Source of the DNA: Apricaphanius iberus
Lineage: Eukaryota; Chordata; Actinopteri; Cyprinodontiformes; Aphaniidae
Length of the DNA stretch: 64,000 nucleotides
Assembly (NCBI GenBank): GCA_028564705.1
Contig: JAPXFQ010002856.1
Coordinates: 62,001 to 126,000, forward strand
Direction: 5' to 3'
The notes under the pieces were generated by a model. That model did not search any database. It saw nothing but the letters and a program-made list of their open reading frames with translations, and was not told the origin of the DNA. This document shows positions 8,485-61,639 of the stretch, piece after piece (position 1 is the first letter of the stretch; the number at the start of each line of letters is the position of its first letter). The position numbers were made by a program, and so were the translations under genes.

Positions 8485-8570
8485 TATTGGAATCATCAGT
8501 ATGTAGGGGCAGGTCCCGCCTTCCTCGCTTCTGATTGGATAGAAGTTCTCTCGCATGATTGGTAAAAGTG
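8485..8570 (-). repeat. Inverted duplicate of a CCAAT-rich segment (copy 1)
   Basis: The reverse complement of this stretch matches 11323-11408 over about 85 bases with only a few differences, including CCAATCATGCGAGAGA, CCAATCAGAAGC, AGGAAGGCGGGAC and TACATACTGATGATTCCAAT. Two CCAAT boxes and a GGCGGG box make it look like a promoter-proximal block. Confidence 0.75.
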
Positions 8571-8589
8571 TTCACATTAATGAGGCTTT

Positions 8590-16659: not shown

Positions 16660-16758
16660 CTGATATGAAATAATGTCGGAAATGAAATAGAAGGCCTCCA
16701 GAAACAGGAAGAAGAATCAGCAGAACCAGGAGAATTATCGCCCAAGTTGGAAATTTTT
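16660..16758 (-). CDS. Transmembrane cassette exon (locus A)
   Basis: A 99-base phase 1-1 exon coding EKFPTWAIILL, a run of hydrophobic residues, then GGLLFHFRHYFIS. The acceptor is TTCTACAG at 16759 and the donor CAG|GTAAGT at 16659. It is a single membrane helix followed by a short basic/aromatic juxtamembrane tail. It joins in frame to the V2 exon (reads FIS-VYRVEV). The seven TM exons of locus B are clear paralogues; locus A has only this one. Confidence 0.82.
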
Positions 16759-18845: not shown

Positions 18846-19190
18846 CTCTGACATGCATCTGAACCCCTGACAGCATTTGTTCTTCTGTTTCATGACGAAT
18901 GCTGCAGATGTAGACACCGCTGTCTGCTAGTTGGGGTTCTCTCAGAGTGAGGCTGAAGTCACCAGACTCTCCAGCATCAGATCTCATCGATGTTCGTCCA
19001 CTGAACAGAACGTTTTGTGCTTGGAGATCGTCTCCTTCCCTCCGTTGATGGACGGTGTTGGGATTGAGATCAAAGCGGCTCCATTTCACTGAGAGAATCT
19101 TTCCTAATGTTTCGTTGCTCTGACAGGGCAGCACAACAGGTTCAGTTCCTTCATAGACATCAAATGTCACCGTCAAAGAATCCTGAGAGG
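18846..19190 (-). CDS. Ig V-set exon, V1 type (locus A, second)
   Basis: A 345-base phase 1-1 exon with the same layout as the exon at 29746-30090: Cys in VVLPCQS, Trp in SVKWSRFD, VHQRREGDDL, GRTSMRSD, and SGVYICSIR. It has one N-glycosylation sequon (NET), near the B-C loop. The acceptor is CCTTTCAG, the donor AGAG|GTCAG. It may be the second V domain of one protein (leader-V1-V1-TM), an alternative V1, or the start of a neighbouring gene whose leader is missing. A (CA)n run follows immediately in the intron. Confidence 0.83.
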
Positions 19191-20435: not shown

Positions 20436-21248
20436 TTAATCAAACGCAACTGGACTTGGTAATTTGTCTTGGAAGACGTTTCACCTCTTATCCAAGAGGC
20501 TTCATCAGTTCATGCTCGCCGCTGACCAGGCTGGGACTGGTCCAACTAACTGGTGTGGAGACTCAGCTATTTAACCTCTTGAACAAGAATCATTATGTCA
20601 TTGGATCCTTTGTGCTCCATGTCTTAACGACGGTCGTTGGCGTGCCGCCTATTGGTGGAGGTTAGGTTTCGGCTTCGTTAGTGCCCTATTGTGTTATAAC
20701 GACAGTCGTTGGAGTCACAGTTGTTACTGTTATTAGAGGCTAATTTGTTTGAGTCTTCTAGGGAGGGATGAAAGGGCAGCATTGTAAATTGGAGATAGGT
20801 GATGTCTCAGGCCTCCTCCTCTGTTTAGCGATGGTTTCTCTGCTTTTACATAGATGGCTTCTTTTACTCCTCTTTCAAACCATCTGTCCTCTCTGTCTAA
20901 TATCTGGACATTGCTGTCCTCAAAGGAGTGGGCTTTCTCCTTGAGATGTAAATGAACAGCAGAGTCCATGCCTGAGGAGTTAGCTCTCCTGTGTTGGGCC
21001 ATGCGTTTGTACAGTGGTTGTTTGGTTTCACCAATGTAGAGGTCCTTGCATTCTTCATTGCATTGGATTGCATACACCAGGTTGCTTTTGTGTGTGTGTG
21101 GTGTTCTGTCCTTGGGATGTACTAGTCTCTGTCTGAGTGTGTTGCTGGGTTTGAACTGATGAAGCCTCTTGGATAAGAGGTGAAACGTCTTCCAAGACAA
21201 ATTACCAAGTCCAGTTGCATTTGATTGAAATTTCCTTGAGATAACCAT
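20436..21248 (-). mobile_element. Penelope-like retroelement 3' part with GIY-YIG endonuclease
   Basis: The minus frame from 21248 gives FKPSNTLRQRLVHPKDRTP, then the GIY-YIG core NLVYAIQCNEECKDLYIGET, KRMAQHRRANSS, HLKEKAHSFEDSNVQILDRE and ERGVKEAIYVKAEKPSLNRG. This is the C-terminal endonuclease of Penelope-like elements (Neptune/Penelope type). The segment GAAGCCTCTTGGATAAGAGG and its neighbours at 21158-21245 recur inverted at 20436-20524, so the piece is flanked by inverted terminal sequence. The reverse-transcriptase part is missing. Confidence 0.8.
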
Positions 21249-21419
21249 GACCTGGATGAATGAGAATATTCACAGGCTTATTCTGAGATTTTAGTCTCCA
21301 TCGATGTTATGTAATTTGAGACTGGCTTGTTCACAGTCAGTTTGTTGCAAAATACTCCACTGTTTCCAGTTCGGCTTAAACTTTCTGCCGGTATTTGTTA
21401 TATAGCTCAGGTATGGCTA

Positions 21420-22169: not shown

Positions 22170-23450
22170 TGCGGGAGCTATGAGAACAAGATGGCGCCAG
22201 AGTGGTCGGCTTGCCATCTGTCTCTGCTCTTTGGTATTCTATTTCTCTGGATTTTGGGTCTTCTTCCTGCAACAAGGGGCTCTGGTGACGTATAACAGAT
22301 CTACTTTGCTGTACTTGAGGTCATCTTTAATGGAATTATTTCACTGTTCCCAAAACGACTGGAATTCTGCACGCCTGCTGTTTTCGAATGTACCTGCCTG
22401 TTTGTTCCGTGGATCACGCCCACCTCGCCTTCGGAAGCGCCAACGCGGTAGATGGGAGGACACTGGGTGAGGATTTGTATGGCGCGTTCAGCAGGACTTT
22501 ACGAGCATAGGACCGACAAGGTCCTGGATTTGTCCTCTCATTTGCATAAGATGACCGGAATTGGATGGATCGTTGGCTGATTCTTTGGATGTAAACATTC
22601 TTTCGTTCACACCCCTGTTCTTCCTTGACTTCCTTGTTATGCATTGTGATTTATCGCCCTCCAAAATATAACACTGACTTTATCGAGGACTTTGAATTGC
22701 TACTATCTGAAATTACGCCCAAATATGAAAAAGTAATCATTGCTGGTGACTTTAATATTCATGTCTGTTGCCCTTCCCGACCACTGAGAGCTTTCTGGAC
22801 TTAATGGCCTCCTTTGGATTAAATCATTCAGTATCGGCTGCTACACATGACAAGTCACATACACTGGATCTGGTTCTATCTTACAGTGTTGCTATAAATC
22901 ACCTGTCCATCCTGCCTGACAGTTTTTTGGATCATTTTCTTGTTTTATTTAATGTTGATTTGTGTGGTTCCGATTGTACTAATAGCAAATCTGTGCGTTT
23001 ATCACAGGTAATTTCCACAAATACTGCCCTAGAATTCTGTACGTCCGTTTCAGCTACAATGGCTACTATCTTTTCCACAACTCATATTTGTTCTGTTGAC
23101 AATCTATTTAATTATTTTCTTGCATCTTGCACTTTGGCATTAGACCCTGTAGCTCTTCTGAGACCTAGGCGCCAACTTTCCAATAAAGATCCGTGGCTGG
23201 ATGATTGGTCAGATAAGGCGTAGGACAAGGTATTTTGAGCGGAAATGGAAGAAAGATAGGCTGCTGTCATTTGTAAAGCGCATTATAATTAAAATGGTAT
23301 GGTATGGATATCAGTGTTCTCAGGAGAGCGGCTCAGCTCTACACTCTCTCTTTGAATTAAACATATTGTCTGAAAAGCATCCAAATATTCCCGCAATACC
23401 TGCTGTCACTCATTTTCAGTAGCAGTAGGGGTTTTTTCTCTCTCTCCTCA
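22170..23450 (+). mobile_element. L2-like LINE: 5' region and endonuclease
   Basis: An AAGATGGCGCC-type start is followed by broken frames: IVIYRPPKYNTDFIEDFELL, VIIAGDFNIHVCCPSRPL (endonuclease GDFN motif), then FLDLMASFGLNHSVSAATHD, SHTLDLVLSY and QLSNKDPWLDDW. This order is that of L2/CR1-group apurinic endonucleases. The copy ends before the reverse transcriptase. Confidence 0.72.
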
Positions 23451-23537: not shown

Positions 23538-26500
23538 GTGTGTTCCGACTCGACCCACACGCAAGGCGGCTGCTGCTCGTAAATGATAAACAGATGGATC
23601 ACATTAAGTTTGGGCACTGGTTCCTTAATAGTAGGATTAGGGAAATAGTCAAGTTATGGTTATCGATGTCGTTTGGATATAAGAAAACCGACAAAGATCA
23701 GACAACAGTTGTTTGTAAAGTTTACCAGCTCACGGTCTAACCAACGGACTCCAACAGGGCCGGATTTAGCCAGTCCCACTAAGGGGTGCAGGTAGAATAT
23801 CAGGGGGGCGGGTCTGGGTGTGCTGTCTTTTATGTTATTTCCGTCTGTCTGTCTGTCTGTTTGTCGTTTTTACTCATTTTTCGTGCATTTTTACATTTTT
23901 TTGTGTATTTGTTGTTTTCATTTGTTTATAGTTTACATGAGTCACTATAGCATCAGTCGTCTGTTCTTTTGTGCAAAAGTCCTAACAAATGCGTCTATAT
24001 CTAGGCCTGTCGTTACGGCCTTCTCATGAGCCAGAATAACTAAATTTATTTTTCTCTTATGTAGCATAGTGCGGCGGAAAGTGGTAAGGACGTGAGACAA
24101 AGTAGAAAGAGAGCTCTGGCAAGATGCAGATTATATTTCAATCACAAGGGAGGTCACATACATGCGATGGAGCTCAGGAAAGGCATTCTTATACCCATGC
24201 AGATGTTTGCAAACAGTGGAGAGGTCTACTAACTCTACAGTGCTATCATCATCAGTCTTTTTGAATTATTTTTCAAACATTATTTTTGCAACAAGAATCT
24301 CATTGGAAAGTTTGTCATTGTCACTTCCTGTCATTTTATGCAGAGGACTTAACATAGCAACATCCAGAAAAGAAGGAGATTGAGGTTGAAGGCAATTAAC
24401 TGCTTTCATGAGATCAACATTGCTTTTGGAGAATCTTGTCTCCATCTCTACAATGGCTTTGTCCAAAATGTTCAGAATCGCTCTCTTCAAAGCCTGGCTA
24501 GGAGTCATGGCGTCTTCTACATGGCCTACAGTAGACCTAAGAACACTACCTGTGAGCACTGAGCTCATTGTTCTCTTTCTTTTAGCAGCTGGTGCAGGTG
24601 TTCTGGTTAATGTCTCACTTTCCTCATTTCTCATCTGCTTCAAAGTCGGCAGAGATGCACTGAATACTTCTGAAGCACAGCACAGGTCAACAGAATGAGC
24701 CTGCAGCATAGCATTTGCAGACTTCAAGGAAGCCAGAACTTTTAGGAAGAATTTTCCAATTTCAAAGATATTATGCCTCCTTAGCATCATCAGTAGTCGT
24801 GATGCCTCTGTACAGGTATAAACAGCAGCAGCTCTGTCCTCTGTAACCTCTGACAGGATACTCATAATAGCATCCTGATTCTCCACAAGACACTTGGTCA
24901 CATCACGGTGGTTTGTCCACCTGATCTCCAACAGTCATTTTAAGGGAGGGGATATCAAACTTATGTGACACCTAATGACGGGGAAAAAAGGAGTGCAGTG
25001 ATCCTGATCGATCAAAAAAGGTTTTGCACATGGCTCTGCTTGCATTGCATGGACCAATGCCACGTGCAGCTGGTGGTTATAGCAGTGGATATAAGGTATA
25101 TCCTTCCCTACCTTCATTTGCAACAAGGCCTGAACCCCACCCCTGACCCCACTCATGACAGAAGCTCCATCATAGCACTGACTCATAATTTCAGCTTTAC
25201 TATAGCCTGAGTCAGAAAGATGCTCAAGAATTTGGTTGGTAATAAATTCAGCATTTAACTGACTGAGATCAAGCAGACCAATCAGATGTTCCTCTGGAAT
25301 GCCTTTACAGACAAATCTAATCATGACTGACGGATTCTCCACATTGCATTTGTCCCTAGTTACATCACTTTTAATGCAAAACCCGGGACAATCTGCTTTG
25401 TCATAACTAGCTTTGATCTTATTTAATACCATTTTGGCCAGTGTTTCAATAATTTTGTTTTGTATGTTGTGAGAGGTGTATTTTGCATTTTGTGGGATGT
25501 TTGTTTATTTCATTAAATTTGGGGTCCTTTGCCAGTGTGTACTCAACCATTTTTAAGAACAGTCCTGCAGAGAAATCATCATTAAAGCTTTCCACACTGC
25601 CACGAAGTGGGAGTTCATTTACTGCTAGGAACTGAACAACTTCTCCAATTGCTTTTATATAATATCTGTTTTTTTCAAGTTGTGCGGGACTAATTAAGTT
25701 ACCAATGGTTTCCCCTGGGGCCTCTCTTTGGGACATTTCAGACCAGATTTTTGCATTTTTTATGTGACATTGACTTGATGCATGCATTGTGAGTCCCTTG
25801 TCCTTTTCTAATGTCGTTTTCCAATTATTAAATCCTTGTTTTGTTAAAACCAAATCCCTATCATTGTTCCCCCCAAATTTACGACATGGGAAACAAAAGC
25901 ACGCATCGAAGTTTGCTGAATATTCGAGCCATGGTCTCCCACGATACCAACCAGGGCAGAATGAGTGGGCGTTTTTCCCAAAATGACGCTTGGGGAAAAC
26001 CAGAGCGGTGGGTTGTGATGGTGCTGTAGTGTTCAAGCCTGTGTTTACGTCCCTCGCAGTGGCCAATGCTGGGCTGGGAGCAACGGAGACAGCGGGGGAT
26101 GCAGTGCTTATGCAAACAGGATAACTATATGTACCGGTACTGCACTGGGCACGGGGCTTAGAGTTTGTGAGGAGTTGAGGAGGAATATCACCCAACGAGC
26201 TGGGTAATGATTCTGCCTCCGCTGCTGCTAATGCCGTAGCACTGCCTATGCTAGGTTTAGCTTTAGCAACCAGAAATCTGCGCATAGTTGACTCGATTCA
26301 CTGGCAATTACAAAAGACAGCGACAGAGAGACAGGGAGAGAATGAAAGAGTATCCAAATAATTGCGGCTATCGATAGCGGAATAACTTAAAACAGCGGCT
26401 GAGCTCAACTAACGGCTGTGCGTCTGCATACTCTGCTGTGACCGAGAAAAAAGTGAGAAGGGGAGGAGCAACAAGCAAGTGCAGCCACTGGCCACACCCT

Positions 26501-29745: not shown

Positions 29746-30090
29746 CTTTTACATGGAGCTGGATGCCACACACTGCTGTTTCTTCTTTTTCCTCTGTCAT
29801 GCTGCAGATATAGACACCGCTGTCTAACAGTTCGGGTTTTCTCAGAGTGAGGCTGAAGTCTCTAGAGTCTAAAGCTTCAGGGTCCATTGAAGTTCTTCCT
29901 CTGAAAACAAGATTTTGTTCTTGTAGGTCGTCTCCCTCTCGCCGTTGATGGACAGTTTTGGGATTCAGATCAAAGCGGGTCCATGTCACTGTGACCATCT
30001 CTTCCAATATTTTGCTGTACTGGCAGGGCAGCAAAACAGATTCTGCTCCCTCCTGAACCTCCACTTTTACAGTCAAAGATTTCTGAAAGG
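29746..30090 (-). CDS. Ig V-set exon, V1 type (locus A, first)
   Basis: A 345-base exon, phase 1-1, coding one V-type Ig domain of 115 residues. Hallmarks: B-strand Cys in SVLLPCQYS, the C-strand Trp in VTWTRFD, the family motif VHQRREGDDL, GRTSM, and the F-strand Cys in DSGVYICSM. An extra Cys lies near the end (AVCGIQL). The acceptor is CTTCCAG at 30091 and the donor AAAAG|GTCAG at 29745. The family resembles fish butyrophilin/B7-like V-set proteins of unknown ligand. No frameshift or stop. It probably forms the membrane-distal extracellular domain directly after the leader. Confidence 0.85.
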
Positions 30091-33211: not shown

Positions 33212-33248
33212 CATAAAAGAGGAACACCAACACAGCAAACAGCTCCAT
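33212..33248 (-). CDS. Signal-peptide exon of Ig V-set receptor (locus A)
   Basis: A start codon at 33248-33246 opens a short hydrophobic stretch, MELFAVLVFLFY, ending in a phase-1 donor (G|GTAAGA at 33212/33211). Short phase-1 leader exons are typical of fish Ig-superfamily receptors. Joined to the V1 exon starting at 30090 it reads on in frame into AFQKSLTVKVEV. This is the only leader exon I can find; the matching one for locus B is probably beyond 64000. The start is chosen because it is the only methionine before the hydrophobic core. Confidence 0.7.
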
Positions 33249-39198: not shown

Positions 39199-40512
39199 AG
39201 GCCCCGTCCACACTACTGCGTTTTCGTTTAAAAACGGAGACCTTTTGCTATGTTTGCACCTCCCATCTACACTAAAACGGAGACCCAAAAAGGAGAAGTT
39301 TAGAAACGCTACCGACCCCGTTTTTAGTTTTGAAACTCCGGAGGGCGTTTTGGTGTGGACGTCTCTTTTTTTTAATTTTTTTATTTTTTTTAATTCAAAT
39401 ATCTTTATTTATCATTCAATAACGATAACAATATAAAGAAAAAAAAAACAAAAAACAAATCACAAACATTCCAGACCATGACAAAGGTAAAACAAAAAAA
39501 AAATAAAATAAACTAATTCGTATAAAACAAACATTACTAAAACATTTAGAAAAAATAAAATATGCCAGATAAATAATATAATAAATATAAGAACTATAAA
39601 GCAACTATCTGAAATAAATTAATAGATTTAAGAAGAAGTAAATAAAAACGACATTCATAGGCAGACATGTTCACTGAATATAATTTGAATAAAATTCAAT
39701 AGCTGAAATACATTTCTTATTAGATTCAACATATAGTAGGGACTCAAAATATATTCTTAATTCGATTAAAAATAATGGGATTGAGGGATTTGTATTAGAC
39801 ATTTTGGCTTTATGGATATGGAATTTACCTAGTAGTATGAAAAGGTTTATTATGTTAGATTTATTATTATGAGAGGAGAAACCAAAAATAATAATTTTCT
39901 CATCAAAGTTATACTTAATAGTAGTTTTAACTAAAAGAAAATTTTCCAAATCTTTCCAGAAACTTATACAGAATGGGCATTTATAAAATAAGTGGATGAT
40001 ATTTTCTCTATCTTTTTTGCAGAAGGTACAGCTGTCATCAATGTCAGAAAACCTGCATACAAATGCATTAGTAGGGTGGACGTCTCAAAACGGAGGACTT
40101 TAGAAACGATGACGCAGCAGATCACATTCGGCTCTATGATTGGGTGTCATCGGTCATGGCGTATCCTTCCCTGATTCGTCAGCCACCCATCACATGACCC
40201 ATCCCCGGAAGATAACATACAGAAACAGCCTGTAGTACATCATGTTAGAAACTGCAACATTGATACTGAATTACAAGCGTTACTGGTTTTGATGTCTTTG
40301 CTAGCAGCTGAGGAATGGTCAATCTGTTTCCTGTTTATACCGGCGCGCGCATGCCCAGTGTTGGAGAATGGTCACGTCATCCACGTTTTCAGTCGTTTTA
40401 ATGTGGATGGAGATCAATTCTAATACGCATGGAATACGCTAGTGTGGACGGAGATAGTTTTCGTTTTAACTCTCCGTTTCTAAACGAAAACGCAGTAGTG
40501 TGGACGGGGCCT
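39199..40512. mobile_element. MITE with long TIRs (AGGCCCCGTCCACACTACTG), carrying an L1 insertion
   Basis: The first and last 31 bases are perfect inverted repeats beginning AGGCCCCGTCCACACTACTG, continuing with only small differences. The interior has further copies of the GTGTGGACG motif and no transposase. A LINE 3' end (39366-40075) has inserted into it. The flanking target duplication is unclear. Confidence 0.8.
39366..40075 (-). mobile_element. L1-like LINE 3' end inserted in the MITE
   Basis: Minus strand: CRFSDIDDSCTFCKKDREN, IIHLFYKCPFCISFWKDLEN and FLLVKTTIKYNFDEKIIIFG, the cysteine motif and C-terminal region of L1 ORF2, then a 3' UTR and poly-A (poly-T at 39366 on the plus strand). 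GTGGACGTCTC occurs on both sides (39355-39365, 40076-40086), a target-site duplication of at least 11 bases. Classic 5'-truncated L1 insertion. Confidence 0.8.
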
Positions 40513-46792: not shown

Positions 46793-47397
46793 TTAATGAG
46801 ACTCCACCAACTTTGGGTTTCTTCCCAACTCTACAGCTCCTTTCAGGATCACTTCCTGGGGTCTAAGAGGACACAGGACTTTATACTGATGTCCAAACTG
46901 ATCAATAATGTGCTGACATAGTATCTGACTCTCAGCTAAGCCCCCAACTAACACAATATATCCAATGTTGGGATCTTTGTTTAATATTTTACTGAAACTC
47001 TTGGTGATGCGTTCTAGACTCTCATCAAAGAAAGATTTACATTTCTGTCTGGAGATTCTGATGGATCCATCATCCCAGGAAGCTCCTTCTACTGAATCAA
47101 AGAACGTTTTAATCTCTTTCTGTTTTTGAGCCAACATCACCAGGTTATCTGGGCAGCTGATCTGAAAATCTCCATCCACCTGCTTCAGATGTGTAAAGTC
47201 ATACATTATTTTCTGGACCTCGTTGGGGAAGTTTATTTCATATTCTTCCCAGACATCATTAGAGAATATTTTTCCCAGGAACTCTTTGAATTTTCCATCC
47301 ACAGATTTTCCTCCCAGATCATTTTCAGCGGCCTCGTTCAGCTTCTTGAAAGCTCCTCCTTCCACAACTTCATGAACAGTCATATTAATAGTTTCAT
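46793..47397 (-). CDS. hspa12-like: HSPA12-like terminal exon B5
   Basis: A 605-base exon entered in phase 1 and ending in TAA. It codes TVHEVVEGGAFKKLNEA, NDLGGKSVDGKFKEFL, SFFDESLERITKSFS, the third nucleotide-binding motif YIVLVGGLAESQIL, and KGAVELGRNPKLVESH-stop. Across the B4/B5 junction the phosphate-2 motif reads DCGDETIN; HSPA12 proteins normally have DCGGGT[IV]D. The protein stops just after GRNPKLV, where HSPA12 relatives continue for roughly 100 residues. I therefore infer loss of nucleotide binding and a missing C-terminal part, and a decaying or non-chaperone role. Confidence 0.78.
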
Positions 47398-47562
47398 CTG
47401 TGGATAAAATAAAACAAAAATCTCAGAAAACGGCTTACTGCACATTCATCAAACAGAAAACAAGTTCAATACTCATTTATTGGTGCTGTTAGCGTATGAA
47501 ACCCAAAGATTTTTAAAACGTGTTTCTTAATAAACATTTAAATAACCATGTGAAACATTTAC

Positions 47563-47676
47563 CTCCACAGTCGACAACAAGATAACGTTTTCCATCTCTT
47601 TTTTGGGTCTCCAGCAGAACTTTGGTTTCTTCTGGTTCCTTTATAAACTTTACAGCCTCCTGACTACCTGGAGGAT
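47563..47676 (-). CDS. hspa12-like: HSPA12-like exon B4
   Basis: A 114-base phase 1-1 exon: DPPGSQEAVKFIKEPEETK, then LLETQKRDGKRYLVVDCG. It ends inside the phosphate-2 loop, whose first half (VVDCG) is normal. Acceptor TCTACAG, donor GGAG|GTAAAT. Confidence 0.78.
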
Positions 47677-48587
47677 CTGTAGAAACACAGAAACGTCACT
47701 GAGCTGCAACATGAAATTTTTTTAATGTTTCTGCAGGTAGATTCAGGCTCAGTTGTTGGTTTTTAGGCTCATTCGGCCGGTTCCCTCATCATCCGTCTAT
47801 GTCACCATAGTGATGCTGGAAACCTCTGGAGAAGAAGTTTCCAGATCAATGATGATCCTGAATCAAAGCAGCTCCATCAGACCAATCATAGAAACGTAAA
47901 AAGCAAAAAAAAGTGACAACTTCTTTGATGATAAAGTCATGAGGCCTGTTAACCAAAGTGGGCGTGTTCCAGTTCTCTGAAATCATAACTCCTTTGGTTT
48001 TGCGTTGCTGAAAAAGAATCTATACATGAGCTATAAGTAGATCAACATTTCTAGCTATTCTGAAATATTTGAGGTCGTACAAGTCTTTTATCTTTCCCTT
48101 TGTTGCTGTTACAACTGAATTTCCCATTTGTGGGACAATAAAGGATAATTCTATTCTATTCCAACCCTCTATGAACTCTAAAACTTTCCTCCAGAACTGG
48201 CCCCAGTAAAGCAAATTTATACAACACACAAAACGTCTGTCCTGCTATAATGATGTCAGTGATTTTGACTGCTTTACAGTCATGCTTCATTATTATTAGT
48301 GGTCCTCTCACACAACAGTTACACTGCATTTACATGAACACATTCAGAGTGAGAAAGCCTTAAATATACTTTCATAAACTGATAACCAGGTTCATTTTGT
48401 TGCTGTGGATATCTTTTTTCACTTAAATGAATGAAATAATTTACATTTAGGATAAATTCAGAATAGGATTAGTCCAAACAAATCAGTTTATTAATTTACT
48501 GATATATTGAACTTGTCCTATAATACCGACTAGAGCCTGTTATTATTGGGATGTTTGCATGACAGACTTTATTGATCCACTCAGTAC
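47677..48587. other. Intron B3-B4 with LINE tail
   Basis: Mostly unique AT-rich sequence. 48060-48170 has a LINE 3' tail signature (TGAATTTCCCATTTGTGGGA, then CAATAAAGGATAATTCTATT). No exon seen. Confidence 0.45.
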
Positions 48588-48759
48588 CGTTACAGCTGGT
48601 TTCACCGTCTGCTGCTCCTGCTGATTGATCCGGAGAGTCTCTGCTGTCATTCTGTGAGATGAAACCATCAGAGGGAAGCTTCAAACACCAGGCCAAAGCT
48701 GCTTCTGATTCCAAAACTAGCATCAATTTCCTTTTAGTGTCTTCTGTTATAAGACCAGC
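48588..48759 (-). CDS. hspa12-like: HSPA12-like exon B3
   Basis: A 172-base exon, phase 0 in, phase 1 out: AGLITEDTKRKLMLVLESEA, then ALAWCLKLPSDGF and a polar, acidic tail (DSRDSPDQSAGAADGETSCN). The LESEAA segment matches LEPEAA of HSPA12 proteins, with Pro replaced by Ser. Acceptor CTTCCAG. The donor, ACG|GTACTG, is weak but gives the right phase for the next exon. Confidence 0.75.
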
Positions 48760-48832
48760 CTGGAAGAGAAAATAAAAATCTCATTTTGCTGAACATGTCG
48801 GAACTGCTATCCTCTCAAAACCGTGATGTTAC

Positions 48833-49054
48833 CTTAATCCCAGCTTCTCTCACGAACTGTTTAGCTGAATGATCCCAGATGGTTGGAACAGTCAACACCC
48901 AGGTGAAGTCAGAAGCTGTAAACCTTACACCTTCTGAATGGTCATTGATGGTTTTCAGAGCATCATCCTTTAGAAATCTTAGAACTTCTGTAAACACTTT
49001 CAGGGTCGTCATTGACTTCTCATTGGCTGCTTTAATTGTCTGTTTACTGATGTC
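48833..49054 (-). CDS. hspa12-like: HSPA12-like exon B2
   Basis: A 222-base exon, phase 0-0, 74 codons. It codes DISKQTIKAANEKSMTTLKV, then FTEVLRFLKDDALKTINDHS and the conserved block DFTWVLTVPTIWDHSAKQF, ending REAGIK before GTAAC. The TVPTIWD block corresponds to the well-kept ATPase-core segment of HSPA12 proteins. Intact. Confidence 0.82.
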
Positions 49055-49896
49055 CTGGGAATAGGTTTCAGTATGTTAGTTTCTATCCATTCATAGGTTA
49101 GTCAGATTTACAGAGGAGGCTTGAGCCCTTTTCCTCTGTGATGCTCCAAGTACTCTTTTTTTTTAGTATGCTATAATTGCGTCCCCCGCCCTCGCAACGT
49201 CAGTCTTTTCAGTGAATACAGAGACAAAAAGGAAGGGTTATTCTTTCCTTAATGTGTTTTTTGTCAATGGCATTGTTTTATAACCAGGATTAAACTGGAA
49301 TCTATGTACTGCTGGCATTACTTGTCAGGGGGGACTCTGAACAGGAGTATGTCAGACTTGCAGTGCTCCACACGCAGGTGATTAGGACACAGAGGATTGA
49401 CAGTGATCGGGACGAGGCGGACATCCTGGTCCAGACCGGAGAGGTAAGTCTCTATGCGTAATGCGCTGATCTTAGGCTTCTATGTCATTGAGAGACGATG
49501 ACTGAGCGAGGGTGAGATAGGAGCGGTGTTTTTGAATCCCTGAAGGAAAGGATCTAACCAATGGTTGAGAGGAGACCATCAGGCACAGCTGTTCTAGGTT
49601 GAGCCTGCTGGCTTCTTGACATTACAGGATTAAACTGGATTCATAGAAATTGTATCTATTGTCTTGTGATGCACTTTGAGACCGCATGTCTAATGAACTG
49701 GTGCTATATACATAACCTAAATTGAATCAAAATAAAACTACAGGCAGGCTTAAAAGTACTAAAAAGGAAGAGTCCCAGCAGTTCAAATAAAAAAGATTTA
49801 TAAGGTAAATCTTATCATCAAGCCCATAATAATATTAAACACCCGGCAGATGTGGATTCAAAATTATTTACATTCAATTGAGCAATCTATCTCTCA

Positions 49897-49976
<80 letters not shown>

Positions 49977-50273
49977 GCTAACCCTAATATGGATATTTTA
50001 GCTTTCACAATAGTGCTTAGATAGTTATAAAGCATAGCAAGGATATTAGGTCTTTGAGCTTTAAAATAGGCAGGTATAAAGGTATACATTTTAGCTGACC
50101 TCTAACCCCTGCAAGCACTGGGGGTCCATGCATTACACACAGGGTTAAAAAAACTATTTACAGGTTATTTGAATAATGCCAATTTCAAGATAACAAGACA
50201 GATGTGTTCATAGGGGACATTGTAGGATCAAAGTAAGAAGATTTCTTTTTTGCAGATCTTTACTTTTACTTAC
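49055..50273. other. Intron B1-B2 with retroelement piece and (TA)n
   Basis: 49180-49730 is a GC-richer retroelement-like piece ending with a Rex1-style tail (GTGATGCACTTTGAGACCGC, CTGGTGCTATATACATAA). A long (TA)n run is at about 49906-49973. No exon seen. Confidence 0.5.
49906..49973 (+). repeat. (TA)n microsatellite
   Basis: An uninterrupted TA run of about 68 bases in the intron between HSPA12 exons B1 and B2. Confidence 0.95.
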
Positions 50274-50557
50274 TCTGGAAAGGACATCCATCTTAATGTT
50301 TTCAAAGAAATACTTTTTCTCAGCTTCTTCTCCTCTCATATTGCTGTAAGCTCTTTTAGCTTCATAACCAAACTTCAGGAATTCTTCATGTTCATCAAAC
50401 AGGATGCAGGTTGGAGTCTTTGGGGTTTCCAGTCGTAGTCCGTTACCCCATCTTTTTAAATGAGTTTCATCTCCTTCCTCTCTGGGTTTTATATTGAAGG
50501 CATAGCCGCTGTATCCTGAACCAAAGTCTATGGCTACGATTAAAGAGTTAGCGCCAC
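50274..50557 (-). CDS. hspa12-like: HSPA12-like exon B1
   Basis: A 284-base exon, phase 1 in, phase 0 out, coding the N-terminal ATPase subdomain of an HSPA12-like protein: AIDFGSGYSGYAF (phosphate-1 loop), LKRWGNGLRLET, KTPTCILFDEHEEFLKFGY and MRGEEAEKKYFFENIK. Acceptor CCAACCAG, donor CCAGA|GTAAGT. The acceptor phase lets V2 join directly (VK-GGANSLIVAIDFG). A stand-alone start is also possible: the frame stays open upstream to a Met near 50777, but that stretch shows no protein-like conservation I recognise. Confidence 0.82.
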
Positions 50558-50574
50558 CTGGTTGGAAAAGAGAA

Positions 50575-51599
50575 CAAAGTGTTGGGTCTGACCCTGAAAA
50601 ATGAAATGATATAAAAGGATTATACGATAAATGCGCATCCATGCCAGCATCCCCGAGCGCTGGCTTCCTGCCATTCTTTCTCTTTTCATAAGTGAACGAG
50701 TTGTATTGATTGTGTGTGTGTGTATCTGTTTTGACTTGGTTTCGAGCCGCGAACCTGTGCGCTCCTGTGCTGGGCAAAGCCGAACGTAGCGTTTGTTACC
50801 CCTTTGTTAATCCGTGACCATTCAATTCAGCGTTTTCTGTTAGCCGAAGGCTAGTTCAGGGATAAGCACCTCGTGGTCTTTTTCATGACGTACATCGCCC
50901 ATCTAATAAACCCACCCCTCTGACCCGGTTCGGAATTTCAGAAAAATCAGAAAAATTATATCTTGTAAACCATTGATAATTAGCTATATAACTGCTGTTG
51001 ATAGCTATCTCTGATGTGTATATTTACCGATTTAAATCCCAGTTGGTGTCCCATTGAATAAATAATATAAAGGAATAATAAATTAACAGTTCATGAATTA
51101 TTAATTTATTATTCCCAGTTAAACCAGGTAGATAATAACCTTTTATTTAGTTTTAACACAACAAAAGTTAGGATCTGAATAAAGAGCAGTTTGACCGTGT
51201 TTTTATGGTAACAAATTATGACTGAAATAAAACTACGAAAACATACAGTTTATAAGTTTATCATTTTATATTTTATTTATTTCATACTTCATTTTATCCC
51301 TGGTCTGGGGATGCATTGGTGGGCCTTGGGACACTAAAGCTTATAGGGAAGAGTGACAAGTCAATTGGCACGATTGGATGAATACTGGTGCTCCTAAATA
51401 TCTAATGAAGTTATATAGTACTAATTTGTTTTATATCATACATCATTCTATATTTTCTTTGTTACAAAATATTCATTAGTATTACATTTATTTCTCTAAC
51501 ATGTATCCTCATTCTGAGCTCCTTAACGTAGAATAAATACCCTAGTTTTATTAAAGCTATTCTCATGAATGAAATGTGGCTTATACCAATTGTACTGAC
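50575..51599. other. Intron between V2 and HSPA12 exon B1
   Basis: No leader exon with a phase-1 donor is evident. A GC-richer block at 50630-50940 differs from the flanks and includes CGAGCCGCGAACC, which looks like a tRNA-derived B-box but without a full tRNA fold. The rest is AT-rich. This matters because a stand-alone HSPA12 gene would need its first exon here. Confidence 0.45.
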
Positions 51600-51932
51600 C
51601 TTTGACATTGAGCAGGACTTTTTTCTCAATCAGGACTTTTCCCGAGCTGTTGGAGATGGTACAGGTGTAGGTGCCTGTGTCTCTGTCTGTGGGGTTCTTC
51701 AAGATCAAACTGAAGTCTCCTAAATTAAATGTTTTCTTCATTTCCGTTCTGTCTCTATACTGCCAGTGTTGTTCTTCAAGGCTTGAGGAGCTGCATGAGC
51801 ACCTCTGATCCCTGTGGACGATTCTGCCTGTGTTGTTCATCCATGTTACTTTCATTTCTTTAGGCAGACGAAGTGTAGTTATAAAGGGCAGCAGAACAGA
51901 CTCCACTCCTGAATCCACTTCCACCCTGTAGA
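51600..51932 (-). CDS. Ig V-set exon, V2 type (locus B)
   Basis: A 333-base phase 1-1 exon, 111 codons. It begins VYRVEVDSGVESVLLPF, keeps Trp in KVTWMNN, RDRTEMKKT, GDFSLILKNP and Cys in TYTCTISN. As in locus A the B-strand Cys is Phe. A Cys-x-Cys followed by a Ser run (RCSCSSSSLEE) is inserted in the C'-C'' region and is absent from the locus A copy. Two sequons (NNT, NSS). The acceptor TCCTCAG and donor AAAG|GTCAGT are good. It splices in phase to HSPA12 exon B1 1042 bases away. Confidence 0.83.
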
Positions 51933-53213: not shown

Positions 53214-53315
53214 CTGACATAAACTGTTGCCGGAAATGAAGTAAAAGGCCAACAGAAACAGTCATAACCAGCAAAACACACAGAACCAGGAGAACTTTAA
53301 CCCAAGTCGGAGTTT
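53214..53315 (-). CDS. TM cassette exon 7 of 7 (locus B)
   Basis: A 102-base phase 1-1 exon: ETPTWVKVLLVLCVLL, then VGLLLHFRQQFMS. Acceptor TCCACAG, donor TCAG|GTGAGA. It is the TM exon nearest to V2 (1281 bases of intron between) and the most likely constitutive partner, like the single TM exon of locus A. Confidence 0.8.
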
Positions 53316-53886: not shown

Positions 53887-53986
53887 CTAAGCTGCTGTCG
53901 AGCATGGTAAAAAAGTCCAGCATAAACACAAAAAAGCACCAACAGAGTCAGGAAAAGCAGGAATCCTTTGGCCCGAGATGAAACAT
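53887..53986 (-). pseudogene. TM cassette exon 6 of 7 (locus B), phase-shifted
   Basis: Homologous to the other TM exons (DVSSRAKGFLLFLTLLVLF, then AGLFYHARQQL), with a good acceptor (CCACAG) and donor (TTAG|GTAAGT). The end of the exon has lost about four bases where the paralogues have TTTATGTCAG, so the donor is in phase 2 rather than phase 1. Using it would shift the frame of any following V2 or TM exon. It is probably dead, or a frame-breaking exon giving a truncated form. Confidence 0.65.
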
Positions 53987-54108
53987 CTGTGGAAAAACAG
54001 GAAAATCAATAGACAATCGGCATAGAGCCCCAGTGCAGACGTCTTATGTTTTCAGAAAATTTGTTCTCTATAAAATGTAAATAAATTGGAAATTGCTAAG
54101 TGTACCAA

Positions 54109-54110
<2 letters not shown>

Positions 54111-54150
<40 letters not shown>
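54111..54150 (+). repeat. (TA)n microsatellite
   Basis: An uninterrupted AT/TA run of about 40 bases between TM exons 5 and 6. Confidence 0.95.
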
Positions 54151-54152
<2 letters not shown>

Positions 54153-54544
54153 CTATTAAATGCAAGCAATCCCTCATCCTGAGCAAGCATGTAGGGACAG
54201 TGGAGAGGAAAGGTCCCCTTTAACAGACAGGAAACAAAGCCTGCCATCCATAATTGTACCCAGGTATTTAAAATTAGTAACTCCACTTCCTGGTCATTTA
54301 GGATTTTATAGCCGAAATACATTCCCCATTTACTATTTATCAGCCTTACAAACTCAAAATCACTCAGTGGGACAAACACTACCATAGAAAAGATGATTGG
54401 TCTGTAGCTGATTAGCTGTGCAGTATTGCATGATACACTGTTGGACACTAAATAAAACCCATTTAAAAATATTAATATTTGTTTCGTCTAAAAGATATTT
54501 TTTTAATTTACGTCACTTTGGTTTCCAATAGCAGAAATATCATC

Positions 54545-54885
54545 TCAAAAATCCATCCTCTGAACCACTTAAACCTTAATGGGTTGCGGGGGGCTGGTGC
54601 CTATCTCCAGCTGTCAATGGCGGGGTACACCCTGGACAGCTCGATAGTCCGTCGAAGGGCCACATAGAGACAGACAGGACAAACAACCATGCACGCAAAC
54701 ACCCACACAATTTAGTTTGATCAATTAACCTGACAGTCATGTTTTTGGACTGTGGGAGGACGCTGAAGTACCCGGAGGGAACCCACAGACGCAAGAACAT
54801 GCAAACTCCATGCAGAAAGACCCTGGGCCGGGATGCTGCAAGGCAACAGTGCTAACCACTGCACCACCGTGCAGCACCATCTCAA
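54545..54885 (+). mobile_element. L2-type LINE 3' tail
   Basis: GGGTTGCGGGGGGCTGGTGC, CTATCTCCAGCTGTCAATGG, GGGGTACACCCTGGACAGCT, TTTTTGGACTGTGGGAGGAC, AACATGCAAACTCCATGCAG and GTGCTAACCACTGCACCACC are the well-known vertebrate/fish L2-group 3' phrases in order. It lies between TM exons 5 and 6. Confidence 0.8.
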
Positions 54886-55560
54886 AAATATCTTTTTTTA
54901 ATAGGAGGCATGAAGAAGGTGGAAAGAAGAGAAGAAGAAACTAAGGAACAGGTAGAGAGAAATGACTTTTTTTCATCTGAGATGTGGAGAAGGTTAATTT
55001 TCCATCAGTACACCAATCCTAAACACAAAGCAAGTGCTAAAATGAGATGGCTTAGATTGAACCAAATTAATGTGTTATAATGGCCCAGTTAAAGTTTTCT
55101 TATATTTTAATATCAGGGAAAAATGGTTCTGCAAGATATTAACTTAAATGGGCTATTCTTATTTTTAAAATGACAGTTTTATTGTACTAGATCAACATGT
55201 ACTATTTGTGTCGTTCGGTCACAAAAACAAAAAACAATTTACATTTATTTATTCTTGCTGTTACAGTTACAGAAAATGTGATAAACTTGTACATTACTTT
55301 TATTTTCAATCATTTATAAAAAAAAGTTTTGGTGGGGTAATGTGGATATAATCCCTGACCATAAAAATATTGAAAACTCAGCAATCCAACCCATAATTGT
55401 AATACGATGACCATTAAACCATGGTAACTTTGAAGCTTTCTTCATCTTTCATTATCACCCCATGGTTCATTGTCTGTAATGGCTACAATCTGTCTAAGGA
55501 AAACTCATTAAACTAAGCATGCTAGATATAAAAGATGGTACATTTGTAAAAGAGACTCAC

Positions 55561-55659
55561 CTGACATCAAATATCCTTGGAAATGAAATAAAATGTCCCC
55601 AGAAACAGCAAGAAGAACCAGGAGAACCAGGAGGAATCCTACTGATGTAATATATATTT
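55561..55659 (-). CDS. TM cassette exon 5 of 7 (locus B)
   Basis: A 99-base phase 1-1 exon: EIYITSVGFLLVLLVLLAVS, then GDILFHFQGYLMS. Acceptor TCCATAG, donor TCAG|GTGAGT. An Asp sits inside the GGLLFHF motif position (GDILFHF). Intact hydrophobic helix. Confidence 0.75.
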
Positions 55660-56025
55660 CTATGGAAAAAAAACATAAAGACAAGTTAAGATTTAAAAAA
55701 ATGCATGCCCAGTACTGATATCCAGCTTCACCTGAGGGAAACTGGAGGATTTAGTAGGAGAATGGATAATATGATTTGTTTTTAATCTGATTTCTTCACA
55801 ATAAAGTATAACTGAATTGATGAGATGATTGAAAACTGCCGAACTTTCTACTGTAAACATACATTTTTTGTATTCTTTTTCAGCCACAAAGGTATGTTGG
55901 CGTTATTTTGGATTTAACTTTGAAAAATCAGCATGTCATGGAATCCAACCCACAGTTGTAAAATGACAATGAAACAAAAGCATGTTGGACATTTGCATTG
56001 ATACTGTTGCAAAAGAGAGACTTAC

Positions 56026-56124
56026 CGGCCATAGAATGAAATAATAGGCCCACAAAAACAGCAGGACCCAACAGAACCACCAACACCTGTGGAACCATGC
56101 AAATTCTATCCAGAGTTGAAGTTT
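56026..56124 (-). CDS. TM cassette exon 4 of 7 (locus B, diverged)
   Basis: A 99-base phase 1-1 exon: ETSTLDRICMVPQVLVVLL, then VGLLFHSMA. The N-terminal half has lost hydrophobicity (Asp-Arg, Pro-Gln), so the helix is shorter. Acceptor CAAAAG is weaker than the CATAG of the others; donor GCCG|GTAAGT. The frame is open but the divergence suggests relaxed selection. Confidence 0.65.
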
Positions 56125-56312
56125 CTTTTGGAAAACAGAACGATCCGTTAGATATCAGACATACATGCCCAGTACAGACCTTTTTTTATTGTCTGAGAAG
56201 TTTAGTAGTTTGCCCAATTACATTTTTAGTATTCCCTTTCAAGATTAGCAAATCATCTTCTTTGAACATTGTGAAAGTATTTAGTATAAATATCCGTAAC
56301 CCCTTAAGCTCG

Positions 56313-56336
56313 AGGGTCCCCCATTTGGGGGACCCT
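56313..56336. other. Perfect 10-bp hairpin in TM-array intron
   Basis: AGGGTCCCCC, a 4-base loop ATTT, then GGGGGACCCT. It follows CCCCTTAAGCTCG, so it may be one end of a TTAA-targeting (piggyBac-like) MITE, but the partner end was not found. About 56280-57060 is distinct from its AT-rich surroundings. Confidence 0.6.
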
Positions 56337-57760
56337 AGGAATATTTTTTTAAATAGGTTTGAGACAGTACATCATCTGACAAAAAAATAGTAATAATGCA
56401 CATTAAATTAAACAGAAGACCACGCGCTACAAGGCTATCTAACCTATTTTTACCAACCACAAACACAACTCAGATGCCACGTAAATAAATATTTGCAAAC
56501 AAAATCGTATTATCATCGTTTCGTCAACCCAGCCGCCACATTCCGGCCTCTACCGCAGCAAAACTTTATGCTAAACGCACAATCAATCACTCAAATGAAA
56601 GCAGAGACTCTCCCAAAACGCAATGCCAAAACACCGCAGACATATAAGCCAAAGTATGACACAACAAAAAACGCTTTTTAGAATCACAGCTGAAAATATA
56701 GCCTTACCTTTGCTGTTTTGCCGTGTAAAAAATATTTCTTTGGAAAATAAACGCTATTTTCTGATAAGTCCATCACTTGTGCATCATTTAAACTGTCCAG
56801 GTGTTTCTATTACAGTTATTTGTTCCTAGGCAGACTTATTATTTAATCCTCGTAAAAGCCTGTTGTTCTCGCAAGGCTCTGTTCTCGGCTCCCTGGTTGG
56901 CTGACTGCATTGTCAATCTTGTTTTGCAAGTTTTAGCGTTATTCTATAGGCTTCTACGATTCCGACGAGGTGTCACTCATGCAAATTGACCAATCAGCTC
57001 CAAGTGAAAGTCTTATGCGTAAAATAAGAGTGTCAGTCGGCAAGACCGTCTTATGACACAAGATGGCGCAAGACGCACAGACATAACTTTGTTTTGCTGC
57101 TTTCACTGTTTATATCTGATAAATGTCACCAGAAAGATGCCCAAAAGTGTTTATTTTAGGTCTACTGAACACTATGTGAAATTAAAATGAAAAATATAAC
57201 TTTTACACTACAGAAATAGAATTGGCACTGTTTGTGCCAAACTAGACACCTAGCCTGATATGCCTGTACTGAAACCTCTGTAGTTTTGTCCTGTTTCACA
57301 TAATCACTTTCAACTTTTGCAGAGATAATGTCCACATGTTGTATTTAAATTTTATTGAGTAATCACTGCTATTCAAGCAATATCCATAGAGTTTTTCAAT
57401 ATAGAACTATGTTTTTTTTAGGCGGAGCAAAAAAGAAATATATTTCTGCTGTGTTCCATCTTCAATTTCTCCTAACCAGTAGCCTAACAGATAACATGCA
57501 TAATGACACATCTATCAAATCTACTCAATGTTACCTTTACAATGACACCAAAATGGTTCAAATACTCTTTTTGGTTGTTGAAATACAAACATTTTTTTGG
57601 GTAAGCAATTTTCGAGAGCTAGGCTTCAAAATAGGCCTAGGGCTTGTCGGTGGACAAAAAAGTTTTTTTTTTACAATATGAAATGGCCACAATCTGTCAA
57701 AGCAAAACTCATAAAACCAGGTTAGACATAAGCTTTAACACGACTGTCAAAGGAACTTAC

Positions 57761-57856
57761 CTGACATAAACTGTTGTCGCAAATGATATAAAACGGCCAC
57801 ATAAAGAATAAGAAACAAGAGCAGAAAAAGGAGACCTATGACCCAAGTTGGAATTT
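57761..57856 (-). CDS. TM cassette exon 3 of 7 (locus B)
   Basis: A 96-base phase 1-1 exon: EIPTWVIGLLFLL, then VAVLYHLRQQFMS. Acceptor TCATAG, donor TCAG|GTAAGTTCC. The GG pair before the LLFHF motif of its paralogues is replaced by VAV. Intact. Confidence 0.78.
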
Positions 57857-58365
57857 CTATGAGAAAACAAAAAGATCAGTTAGATGTTGGACATAATGTC
57901 CATCACAGATGTCTGATGTCTTCTGAAAAAATGCATCAGTTTACATAATTAGCATTAAATATCAGGGATTCCTTCAAAAATAATAGTATACATTTCTTTG
58001 AATGTTGTAAAAACATTCAGAGTTAATTTTCCTAATGTTAGAGTGAAACCATAATTTAGTTTTTTCCCTCATAAAGTTATTTAATTTTTAGCACTTTGGC
58101 ATTCCACAGTAATTTGGTATTACCACCTTTACTTTCAATCTACAATTTTTTTAATGTTTTTTTTATTTTTTATTCCTGCTTGGTTTTACTGGCAAACCTG
58201 GGTGTTGCTTGGAATCATTATCACTCACAAGGAAATAAAAATATCACACTACTCGGAATTTTGTGTCAGTTTTTGTGAGTTAGAAGTTTTGCACAATTTA
58301 GTGTTTTTCTATGCTAGAGCGCTGCAGTATCATGAGATCAAAAAAGCACTTTGACAGAAGTGTAA

Positions 58366-58795
58366 AAATAACACTACATATTTATCTTGACAGTTGTTTT
58401 TTCACTGGAACAGAGTAAATCATTAACACATTAGTGTATAAAATTAACACCGTTCTGAGTTATATTAGCCTCCAGTGTTAACCTTCATTAACTCATTGCA
58501 GTGTTAAAAAGCCTTAGAATCAGAGTTAAAATTGTCACCACAGTGGAGTAACTTTTCTACTCTGCTGAGAGTCATATTTACTCTTGCCAGAGTTATTTAA
58601 CCTGTAGTGTTAAGTTTCATTAACATTGTCCATTGTTATCCAGTGTTATTTTTTTACTCAATTTTAAATTAATGTTACTCTGAAATTTTAACACTATGCA
58701 AAGAGTTAAATTATCACCAATTCCGATAAGGACCAAATACACTTTGACATAGTGTTGAATTTAACTCTTTAAGTCTTGATTTAATTTACTGTGTA
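58366..58795. mobile_element. Motif-dense MITE (repeated GTGTTAA / GAGTTAA)
   Basis: More than a dozen variants of AGTGTTAA, TTAACACT or GAGTTAA lie in about 430 bases on both strands. The outer ends are GTAAAAATAACACTACATAT and AATTTACTGTGTA. No open frame. Such arrays are known in some teleost MITEs; clear TIRs and target duplication were not identified. Confidence 0.55.
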
Positions 58796-59309
58796 TTAGT
58801 GGTGGTCTAAAAACATTTTACTGAATGAAAAAGTGTTCCTGCTGGACAATGAGCTGCTCTCTGTATCTATGATTCTACTTTACCTGGTGAGGGATTTCTG
58901 ACTGATCATCATTATTGTTCAGTTCTGACACCACCACAAATGTTGTGCACTAACTTCAATGTATCCTTCTCCTGATGTCCTTTGAACAGGGGTGACTGTG
59001 GCTCATGGGGTTTGGAGTTTGCCTTTCAACTGGAGGATTGCCAATTCAAGCCCCAAAGCCCTTGCTTCTTTGAGTCCGCTATAATTGCAGCTTGCTTCCT
59101 CCAGTGTGTAAATTTGAATGAATAATGGAATTTGTAAAGTGTCCAAAAAGGTGATATATAAGTTTGATGCATTACTATTCAGGGAGACTTGCTTTAACTT
59201 GATATTTTAATCCTTAATCCTTTCTGTATCCGTTCACAATCTAAAATGGCCACCGATGTACCTCAGCATGTTAGACATTAACAATGATACTGTTTTAAAA
59301 GGAACTTAC

Positions 59310-59414
59310 CTGAATTAAATTTGTGTCGAAAATGAAATAAAAGGCCCCCACAAGCACAAAGAACAACCAGCAAAAATAGAGAAGCCAGGAAAATTCTTGC
59401 CCGAGTTGAAATTT
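59310..59414 (-). CDS. TM cassette exon 2 of 7 (locus B)
   Basis: A 105-base phase 1-1 exon: EISTRARIFLASL, a hydrophobic core with two Cys (LCAC), then GGLLFHFRHKFNS. Acceptor CATAG, donor TCAG|GTAAGTTCC. It has two arginines where the paralogues have Trp-Ala, at the outer membrane border, and is the longest of the set. Intact. Confidence 0.78.
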
Positions 59415-60152
59415 CTATGGAAAAACAGGAAGATAAGTTAGCTCTTAGATATGTATTATTGCATTTATAAAGTAAATGCAATTTATGTCACTTACATTGC
59501 AACTATACACATTTTCTCAAGGCAACTTTGAAAATAATCCAATTAATTACCCAAAGGTTAATATAAGATCAGATACCTTATAATCTATTAAATTAACATA
59601 ATATGGACATTTATTTGTATTGTCTATCCAAAAAAAAAGAGATAAATATTTAAATACATTAAGTATATAGACAAAATTACACAAACTGAAACATACACAT
59701 ATACATAAAATATTTCTCATATTAGTTCTTCAATGCAAGTCTTCTGCCTACGACCAACAACTGAAACAATGAGTAAAAGGGAGAGGAGTCTTTATAGACC
59801 TGAAAATAATTCTACAATAACTTATTTCTTTTGACAGCACTAATATATTTAAAAAAAATGTTTCACTGGAGTTTTGCTTTTTTGCAAAGAAAAATAGGAA
59901 TTTTTTTTAGCCATAAAATGTGTGGATCTGGTAGAAACATATCCCTAAAAAGACTTACAGCTTTATTATCAATGAAAAATGCTTTTTTAATAATATTGAA
60001 ATATAAGGACTGAAAATAATTTTAGGGCTTTTTTTTCTTACTTGTAAACAACAATAACCCCTTGATCAATTTTCACTTAAAAAATATATTTGTAGTAGTC
60101 TGTTGTGCAACATGTTACACATTAGCATTGATACAGTTGTAAATGTACTTAC
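59415..60152. other. Intron between TM exons 1 and 2
   Basis: AT-rich; no exon, TM-like sequence or clear repeat. Confidence 0.4.
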
Positions 60153-60254
60153 TTAATATGAGATTCTGCCGGAAATGAAACAAAAGGCCCCCAAAAACAG
60201 CAAGAAACAGCAAAACCAGCAGAACCAGGAGAACTATGGCCCACGTTGGAATTT
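60153..60254 (-). CDS. TM cassette exon 1 of 7 (locus B)
   Basis: A 102-base phase 1-1 exon: EIPTWAIVLLVLL, further hydrophobic residues, then GGLLFHFRQNLIL. Acceptor CCTTAG at 60255. The exon ends on A before GTAAGTAC instead of the usual TCAG|GTAAGT of its paralogues, so its last residue differs but the phase holds. Confidence 0.78.
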
Positions 60255-61294: not shown

Positions 61295-61639
61295 CTTTGA
61301 CAAGCAGCTGTACATATGACAGTGTTGTTTCCTCATCATTATCAATGATGCTGCAGCTGTAGACACCACTGTCAGAAAGTTTGGGTTCTCTCAGATAGAG
61401 GCTGAAGTCACCAGAGTCTAGAGCCTCAGGTCTCATTGATGTTCGTCCACTGAAAAGATGATTTTGTGCATGTAGTTCGTCTCCTTCTCGTAGTTGATGG
61501 ACAGTATTGGGATTGAGATCCAAGCGACTCCATTTCACTGTGACAATCTCTTCTAACCTTTGGCTGTACTGGCAGGGCAGCACAACAGACTGGGCCCAGT
61601 CATGAACCTCCACATTTACAGTCAAGGAATCGTTAGAAG
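61295..61639 (-). CDS. Ig V-set exon, V1 type (locus B)
   Basis: A 345-base phase 1-1 exon. It codes SNDSLTVNVEVHDW, then Cys in VVLPCQYSQ, Trp in VTVKWSRLD, TVHQLREGDEL, FSGRTSMRPEALDSGDFSL and Cys in SGVYSCSII. Acceptor TTCCAG at 61640, donor AAAG|GTCAGC at 61294. All canonical V-set residues are kept, so a normal disulfide-bonded extracellular domain is expected. It lies upstream of the TM array and can splice in phase to six of its seven exons. Confidence 0.85.

Follow-up and report, generated by a model that had tools for sequence, protein, structure and literature searches.

The window analysed here is a 64,000-nucleotide (64-kb) stretch of the genome of the cyprinodontiform fish Apricaphanius iberus (GenBank assembly GCA_028564705.1, contig JAPXFQ010002856.1, positions 62,001 to 126,000), and it carries two minus-strand units, A and B, in which an immunoglobulin (Ig) V-set exon, V2, is joined in phase to an exon of the atypical Hsp70 relative HSPA12. 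We read unit A, with a probability of roughly 0.8, as one gene for a B7/butyrophilin-like receptor whose predicted cytosolic part combines an Ig domain with an Hsp70-type, probably non-hydrolysing, nucleotide-binding domain. The narrower claim that V2 and HSPA12 belong to one gene is very probable, since gene models of other cyprinodontiforms (killifishes and live-bearers) contain the open, phase-matched unit within one predicted protein.

V2 and HSPA12 exons form one open, phase-matched unit

In unit A, V2 (51600-51932, 333 nucleotides, minus strand like all exons given below) is bounded by AG/GT sites in phase 1-1, and an intron of 1042 nucleotides separates it from the first HSPA12 exon. 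This exon, B1 (50274-50557), starts in phase 1, contains the phosphate-1 loop DFGSGYSG, and has no ATG upstream of the nucleotide-binding domain. It is followed by B2 (48833-49054), B3 (48588-48759), B4 (47563-47676), whose 3′ end lies within a degenerate phosphate-2 loop, and B5 (46793-47397), which terminates past the nucleotide-binding domain. All five exons (46793-50557) have AG/GT sites and keep the frame. The product from V2 to the stop is open over 575 residues, and downstream of V2 it consists of one codon split with B1 and 464 further residues, 465 in all, before a TAA. The phase match and open frame described in the earlier note were thus reproduced in exon phases, splice sites, and length. 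In Pfam, the V2-HSPA12 product matched V-set (3e-8; 34.2 bits against a cut-off of 26) and HSP70 (1.3e-10).

The same phase-1 join is repeated in unit B, between V2 (15533-15850, phase 1-1) and B1 (14835-15118, with a phase-1 start). In both units the residue at which a separate HSPA12 protein would begin has changed. Stand-alone fish HSPA12 proteins typically start with MGDSYII-AIDFG. Of 89 stand-alone copies examined, 75 were readable here, and 74 of these have a Met no more than 12 residues ahead of the AIDFG motif. In the 33 V-joined sequences examined, units A and B included, the usual place of this Met was readable in 32 and held G (18), E (9), K (4), or A (1). The HSPA12 start Met is lost at its old position in the cyprinodontiform joined clade; a Met immediately ahead of the motif, present in 13 of 33 readable clade rows, is the Fundulus form, IM-AIDFG.

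We searched protein databases with the V2-HSPA12 product (7986 candidates with most shared words scored; 657 proteins, best 120 listed), with the membrane exon, V2, and B1 (436 proteins, best 120 listed), and with a restriction to proteins of about 700-2200 residues. The last search yielded 62 HSPA12 proteins, 22 of which had V domains. Among 274 fetched proteins, referred to below by P numbers, 31 contained both V and HSPA12 domains, 138 HSPA12 only, and 105 V only; the search for this combination that the earlier note had proposed was therefore positive. The HSPA12 domain was present nearly end to end in 24 of the joined proteins and in part in the other 7, and the joined proteins come from Poeciliidae, Anableps, two Fundulus species, Kryptolebias, and Pholidichthys. 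The closest named sequences among the matches listed were from cyprinodontiform fishes, and most of the top 16 matches to the V2-HSPA12 product (Poeciliidae, Anableps, Fundulus, and Kryptolebias) span both parts, with P0013 and P0014 carrying a piece of one part only. A complete order of V domain, transmembrane (TM) segment, V domain, and HSPA12 was found in 22 of the 31, with one membrane segment in 19 and nine in 3 (Xiphophorus hellerii, Poeciliopsis prolifica, and Fundulus heteroclitus). In Fundulus diaphanus, at least 8 isoforms of one joined gene are predicted, several of which vary in V-domain number.

We then considered the phylogeny of the two parts separately. The HSPA12 tree drew on a first set of database proteins: it comprised 20 of 25 V+HSPA12 proteins (P0014, P0019, P0106, P0217, and P0229 were omitted), P0013, whose V domain is represented by its end alone, 36 of 99 other HSPA12-only proteins, and, from the window, unit A, with unit B omitted. 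In this tree the cyprinodontiform joined parts formed one clade (support 100) of 22 rows, namely 20 labelled as joined and two truncated Girardinichthys models. The V tree, built on few columns, comprised the HSPA12-abutting V domains of 22 of the 33 V+HSPA12 sequences (P0009, P0011, P0014, P0135, P0229, and P0232-P0237 were omitted) together with 13 of the 105 V-only proteins, which contributed 52 V domains. Here the abutting V domains, including that of Kryptolebias, formed one clade (support 96, 21 of 22 rows), and Pholidichthys stood apart. V2 of unit A grouped with the multi-membrane paralog (support 95) and V2 of unit B with a P. mexicana protein (support 82). That each part forms its own clade points to an inherited join rather than a repeated annotation error. 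Kryptolebias (P0015) and Pholidichthys (P0160) fell outside the main HSPA12 clade; topologies constrained to place one or the other with it were not rejected (p 0.47 and p 0.19, respectively). The basal position of Kryptolebias in the V clade, together with the former value, is consistent with the join having arisen close to the base of Cyprinodontiformes. The trees are consistent with a single origin of the join there, and Pholidichthys, another ovalentarian, may represent a second, independent join.

These results bear on the alternative raised in the earlier note, two neighbouring genes with phases that agree by chance. On this reading an Ig receptor gene would end upstream of a separate HSPA12 gene with a start of its own, and gene predictors would have merged the two in several species. 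Phase agreement alone would be expected about once in three cases, and the V2-B1 intron of unit A, in which the earlier note had seen no leader exon for a separate HSPA12 gene, contains an in-frame ATG at 50642 from which the unspliced frame is open into B1. Moreover, the joined relatives are gene predictions, P0160 looks like two receptor genes merged into one model, and several partial models start within V2 or at B1. In unit B, however, the equivalent frame is stopped beside the B1 acceptor and no ATG lies ahead of the nucleotide-binding motif, so that the ATG of unit A is not conserved there. Two genes are also hard to reconcile with a join that recurs in both units and in 31 of the 274 proteins, with the loss of the start Met in the joined clade, and with trees in which each part forms a clade; we regard this alternative as very improbable. 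The existence of the second unit, the absence of the start Met, and the wider recurrence of the join led us to reject a chance phase match as the main explanation.

Membrane exons and the predicted topology

The earlier account gave the interval of the join correctly and overlooked the membrane exons between V2 and a further V-set exon, V1; with these exons in place, the predicted position of V2 is intracellular. V1 of unit A (61295-61639, phase 1-1) has both canonical Cys residues and is predicted to be extracellular. It matched the Pfam V-set profile at 1.3e-13 (51.5 bits against the same cut-off of 26), and its best PDB sequence matches were CD276 (4.4e-9) and VTCN1 (1.8e-8), with MOG, BTN, and PD-L1 also listed and CD4 and MXRA8 at weaker E-values. 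No C-set match was found in the V1 exon with Pfam; the stretch upstream of V1 was scanned only in part, and exons are possible beyond position 64000. Between V1 and V2, a tandem array of membrane-spanning exons (53986-60254) is collinear with the nine-segment array of the three relatives. It includes TM1 (60153-60254), TM2 (59310-59414), TM3 (57761-57856, limits set by eye), TM4 (56026-56124), and TM5 (55561-55659), and is followed by TM9 (53214-53315), which adjoins V2; all six are phase 1-1. A counterpart of TM8 (53887-53986) is 100 nucleotides long with a donor out of phase, and is probably skipped or decayed. Unit B has a candidate signal-peptide exon (MELFAVLVFLFY; 33212-33248) with a phase-1 donor and a likeness to the leaders of P0001 and P0012, two V-set exons (29746-30090 and 18846-19190), and a single membrane exon (16660-16758) ahead of its V2.

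The likely arrangement predicted from these sequences is that of a type I membrane protein in which V1 is extracellular and V2-HSPA12 cytosolic. The V-TM-V-HSPA12 order that is complete in 22 of the 31 joined proteins leads to this prediction, and the AlphaFold model of the relative P0012 consists of a signal helix, an Ig domain, a TM helix, a second Ig domain, and an Hsp70 domain. The Cys residues, counted over 230 proteins and the two window units with domains that are not independent events, differ between the two sides of the membrane. In the joined proteins, pre-membrane V domains keep the Cys pair in 30 of 31 cases (1 unreadable), and the V domains abutting HSPA12 have Phe in place of the B-strand Cys in 20 of 25 (Cys in 3, unreadable in 2); V2 of both units A and B has this Phe. 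Loss of the Cys in V2 fits a reducing, cytosolic place. Likewise, the net charge of the membrane flanks is +4 before and +29 after the segment (21 sequences, many of them near-copies, with rough flank limits), and positive charge after the segment is consistent with a cytosolic V2-HSPA12.

The window genes have V-set domains both before and after the membrane segment, an arrangement shared by a broad percomorph family: it occurs in 99 of the 105 V-only proteins (P0027 to P0230). In the V tree, V2 of the window is nested among the post-membrane V domains of this family, and the best PDB sequence matches of V2 were otk, titin, and contactins. The V-only proteins often end in a short tail such as RNRSSSIDPTPLMADQSV. 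Among their V domains, the B-strand Phe occurs in 7 of 186 that precede the membrane segment and in at least 176 of 468 that follow it.

Several observations count against the receptor reading or its topology. Most readable post-membrane V domains of the V-only proteins retain the Cys, so that its loss is not simply tied to place, and V2 itself keeps it in three joined relatives (P0005, P0006, and P0015). N-glycosylation sequons are more frequent in post-membrane V domains (1.32 over 60 domains) than in pre-membrane ones (0.5 over 48), which suits a cytosolic place poorly. Use of all six frame-preserving membrane exons of unit A, which has a seventh out of phase, would leave V2-HSPA12 outside the cell. 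TM6 and TM7 of the nine-segment relatives were not found in unit A, nor was a leader exon in the window above 61600, and unit B exons B2-B5 were not found in window positions 1-14834. Finally, the ratio of nonsynonymous to synonymous substitution rates (dN/dS) between units A and B was 0.62 for V2 and 0.65 for B1 by the NG86 method, and 0.85 for B1 by YN00, which suggests that constraint between the units is weak at most.

Some of these points would also be expected if unit A were a decaying copy, with the architecture genuine in relatives and the full receptor no longer made here. The out-of-phase TM8 exon, the missing TM6, TM7, and in-window leader, and the fairly high dN/dS speak for decay. 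However, all of V1, V2, B1-B5, and the six membrane exons in phase have open frames bounded by AG/GT sites, exons that are symmetric in phase 1 can drop out with the frame kept, and the leader may lie beyond position 64000; we consider decay unlikely. A different possibility is that the main product is secreted or purely cytosolic, through skipping of the membrane exons or through a start at the Met that closes the membrane exon. P0007 has the order V-V-V-HSPA12 and no membrane segment, P0010 begins at that Met, and the membrane exons are symmetric in phase 1. Against such a product, the membrane segment is in place in the 22 fully ordered proteins and membrane exons have been retained, up to nine of them in proteins of three species, and we judge it distinctly unlikely beside a membrane receptor.

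The HSPA12 module is probably a pseudo-ATPase

The earlier note called the joined module an HSP70-like cytosolic ATPase. The HSP70 assignment was borne out by Pfam, and the Hsp70-type nucleotide-binding fold is retained according to structure prediction: the HSPA12 part of the relative P0020 is modelled with a predicted local distance difference test (pLDDT) score of 86.4 and matches Hsp70 domains. The ATPase label is doubtful because the phosphate-2 loop is degenerate. Its GGGT motif was present in 86 of 89 stand-alone copies versus 0 of 36 readable clade rows, where the first two Gly are replaced mostly by D or A and then by E, Q, Y, or K; in unit A the loop reads DCGDETIN. These 36 rows comprise 25 V-joined sequences, unit A included, and 11 HSPA12-only models assigned to the clade on similarity, with tree placement limited to P0013, P0030, and P0032. 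The unit A product also stops after ...GAVELGRNPKLVESH, without the part C-terminal to the nucleotide-binding domain (the median length of stand-alone proteins is 569). We predict that the module has probably lost ATP hydrolysis.

An active ATPase, with the nucleotide state as a signalling switch in a genuinely joined protein, would be compatible with the retained fold in the model of the relative, with the adenosine motif VGG in 33 of 34 readable clade rows, and with Kryptolebias P0015, which retains GGGT and in this respect departs from the pseudo-ATPase prediction. The loss of GGGT, with its first two Gly replaced, from every readable clade row argues against activity, and we regard an active enzyme as improbable.

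Two further observations concern HSPA12 models in Xiphophorus. In four X. maculatus models (P0001, P0003, P0017, and P0018), the exon-B4 segment occurs in 2-3 tandem copies before the degenerate phosphate loop. P0238, from X. hellerii, is an HSPA12 protein with a charged N-terminal extension of about 300 residues, coiled-coil-like by eye, and represents another type of fusion.

Other features of the window

An open reading frame (ORF) at 20736-21269 encodes a GIY-YIG domain (PF01541, 1.4e-5) and is probably a remnant of a mobile element, and a weak zf-RVT match (PF13966, below cut-off) at 39674-40084 is likely a retroelement remnant. Transposase- or retroelement-like ORFs were recognised by eye at 2442-3914, 6457-9900, 22756-23419, and 24269-26297; those tested in Pfam gave no match at 1e-3.

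Proposed function and implications

If the receptor is made as predicted, V1 would engage a ligand outside the cell, possibly the surface of a pathogen or a partner of the B7 type, and binding would be relayed to the cytosolic V2-HSPA12 module. There V2, separated from the Hsp70 fold by about 5 residues in the predicted model of a relative, would form with HSPA12 a docking platform that would recruit partners, hold them, or let them go with no need for an ATPase cycle. Two analogies are available for such a module: the B30.2 domain of butyrophilins engages partners, and the Hsp70 relative Ssz1 acts as an adaptor. The platform mechanism, including signalling, is a tentative proposal by analogy with these proteins.

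Taken together, the sequence evidence tips somewhat in favour of a new class of vertebrate surface receptor, with a B7/butyrophilin-like V domain outside, an Ig domain without its original disulfide inside, and an Hsp70-type pseudo-ATPase as cytosolic effector. This class would have arisen near the base of Cyprinodontiformes, perhaps again in Pholidichthys, and would now exist as tandem copies with one nine-segment paralog. If expressed as predicted, it would be a natural case in which the Hsp70 fold passed from chaperone engine to receptor module. Possible intermediates would be at hand, since Kryptolebias has both GGGT and the Ig Cys and most poeciliid copies seen have neither. The role of the many percomorph HSPA12-like copies would also become testable.

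Comparison with known systems

The earlier note suggested that the architecture was new. Neither a V-HSPA12 receptor nor the percomorph V-TM-V family is described in the open-licence PubMed Central papers surveyed as listings and abstract beginnings; the joined proteins are, however, already in the databases as automatic gene models, many of them named 'heat shock 70 kDa protein 12A-like'. In the oyster, HSP70 domains are mentioned in an expansion of immune-type genes, and the passages seen contain no V-HSPA12 receptor (PMC8195603).

HSPA12 serves as a module in other fusions from invertebrates, namely P0272 (Saccostrea), which carries PF00619, and P0271 and P0273, which carry PF00656; we take these to be CARD and caspase domains, respectively. 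No V domain was found in P0271-P0273 by the V profile, and their layout is unlike that of the window's receptor. To our knowledge, no receptor uses an Hsp70-family domain as its cytosolic portion, and no immune-type receptor has V-set domains after the membrane segment.

Like B7, butyrophilin, and MOG proteins, the joined protein has a V-type ectodomain and a membrane segment, and V1 is nearest to CD276 and VTCN1 among PDB sequences. Unlike butyrophilins, it has no B30.2 domain and instead carries a post-membrane Ig domain and HSPA12. The percomorph V-TM-V proteins, annotated under names such as 'hemicentin-1-like', 'unc-89-like', or 'butyrophilin-like protein 2', resemble units A and B in having V domains before and after the membrane segment and, in some post-membrane V domains, the B-strand Phe. 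They lack HSPA12, and 101 of the 105 end no more than 50 residues past the last V domain, whereas the window gene ends in an Hsp70-type domain. Among HSPA12A/HSPA12B-like proteins, most of the stand-alone fish copies listed show about 51-59% identity to the Hsp70-type nucleotide-binding domain of the window gene, in matches that cover 80% of the query. The window gene differs from them in having no start Met of its own, no GGGT, and no C-terminal part, and in being joined to Ig and membrane exons.

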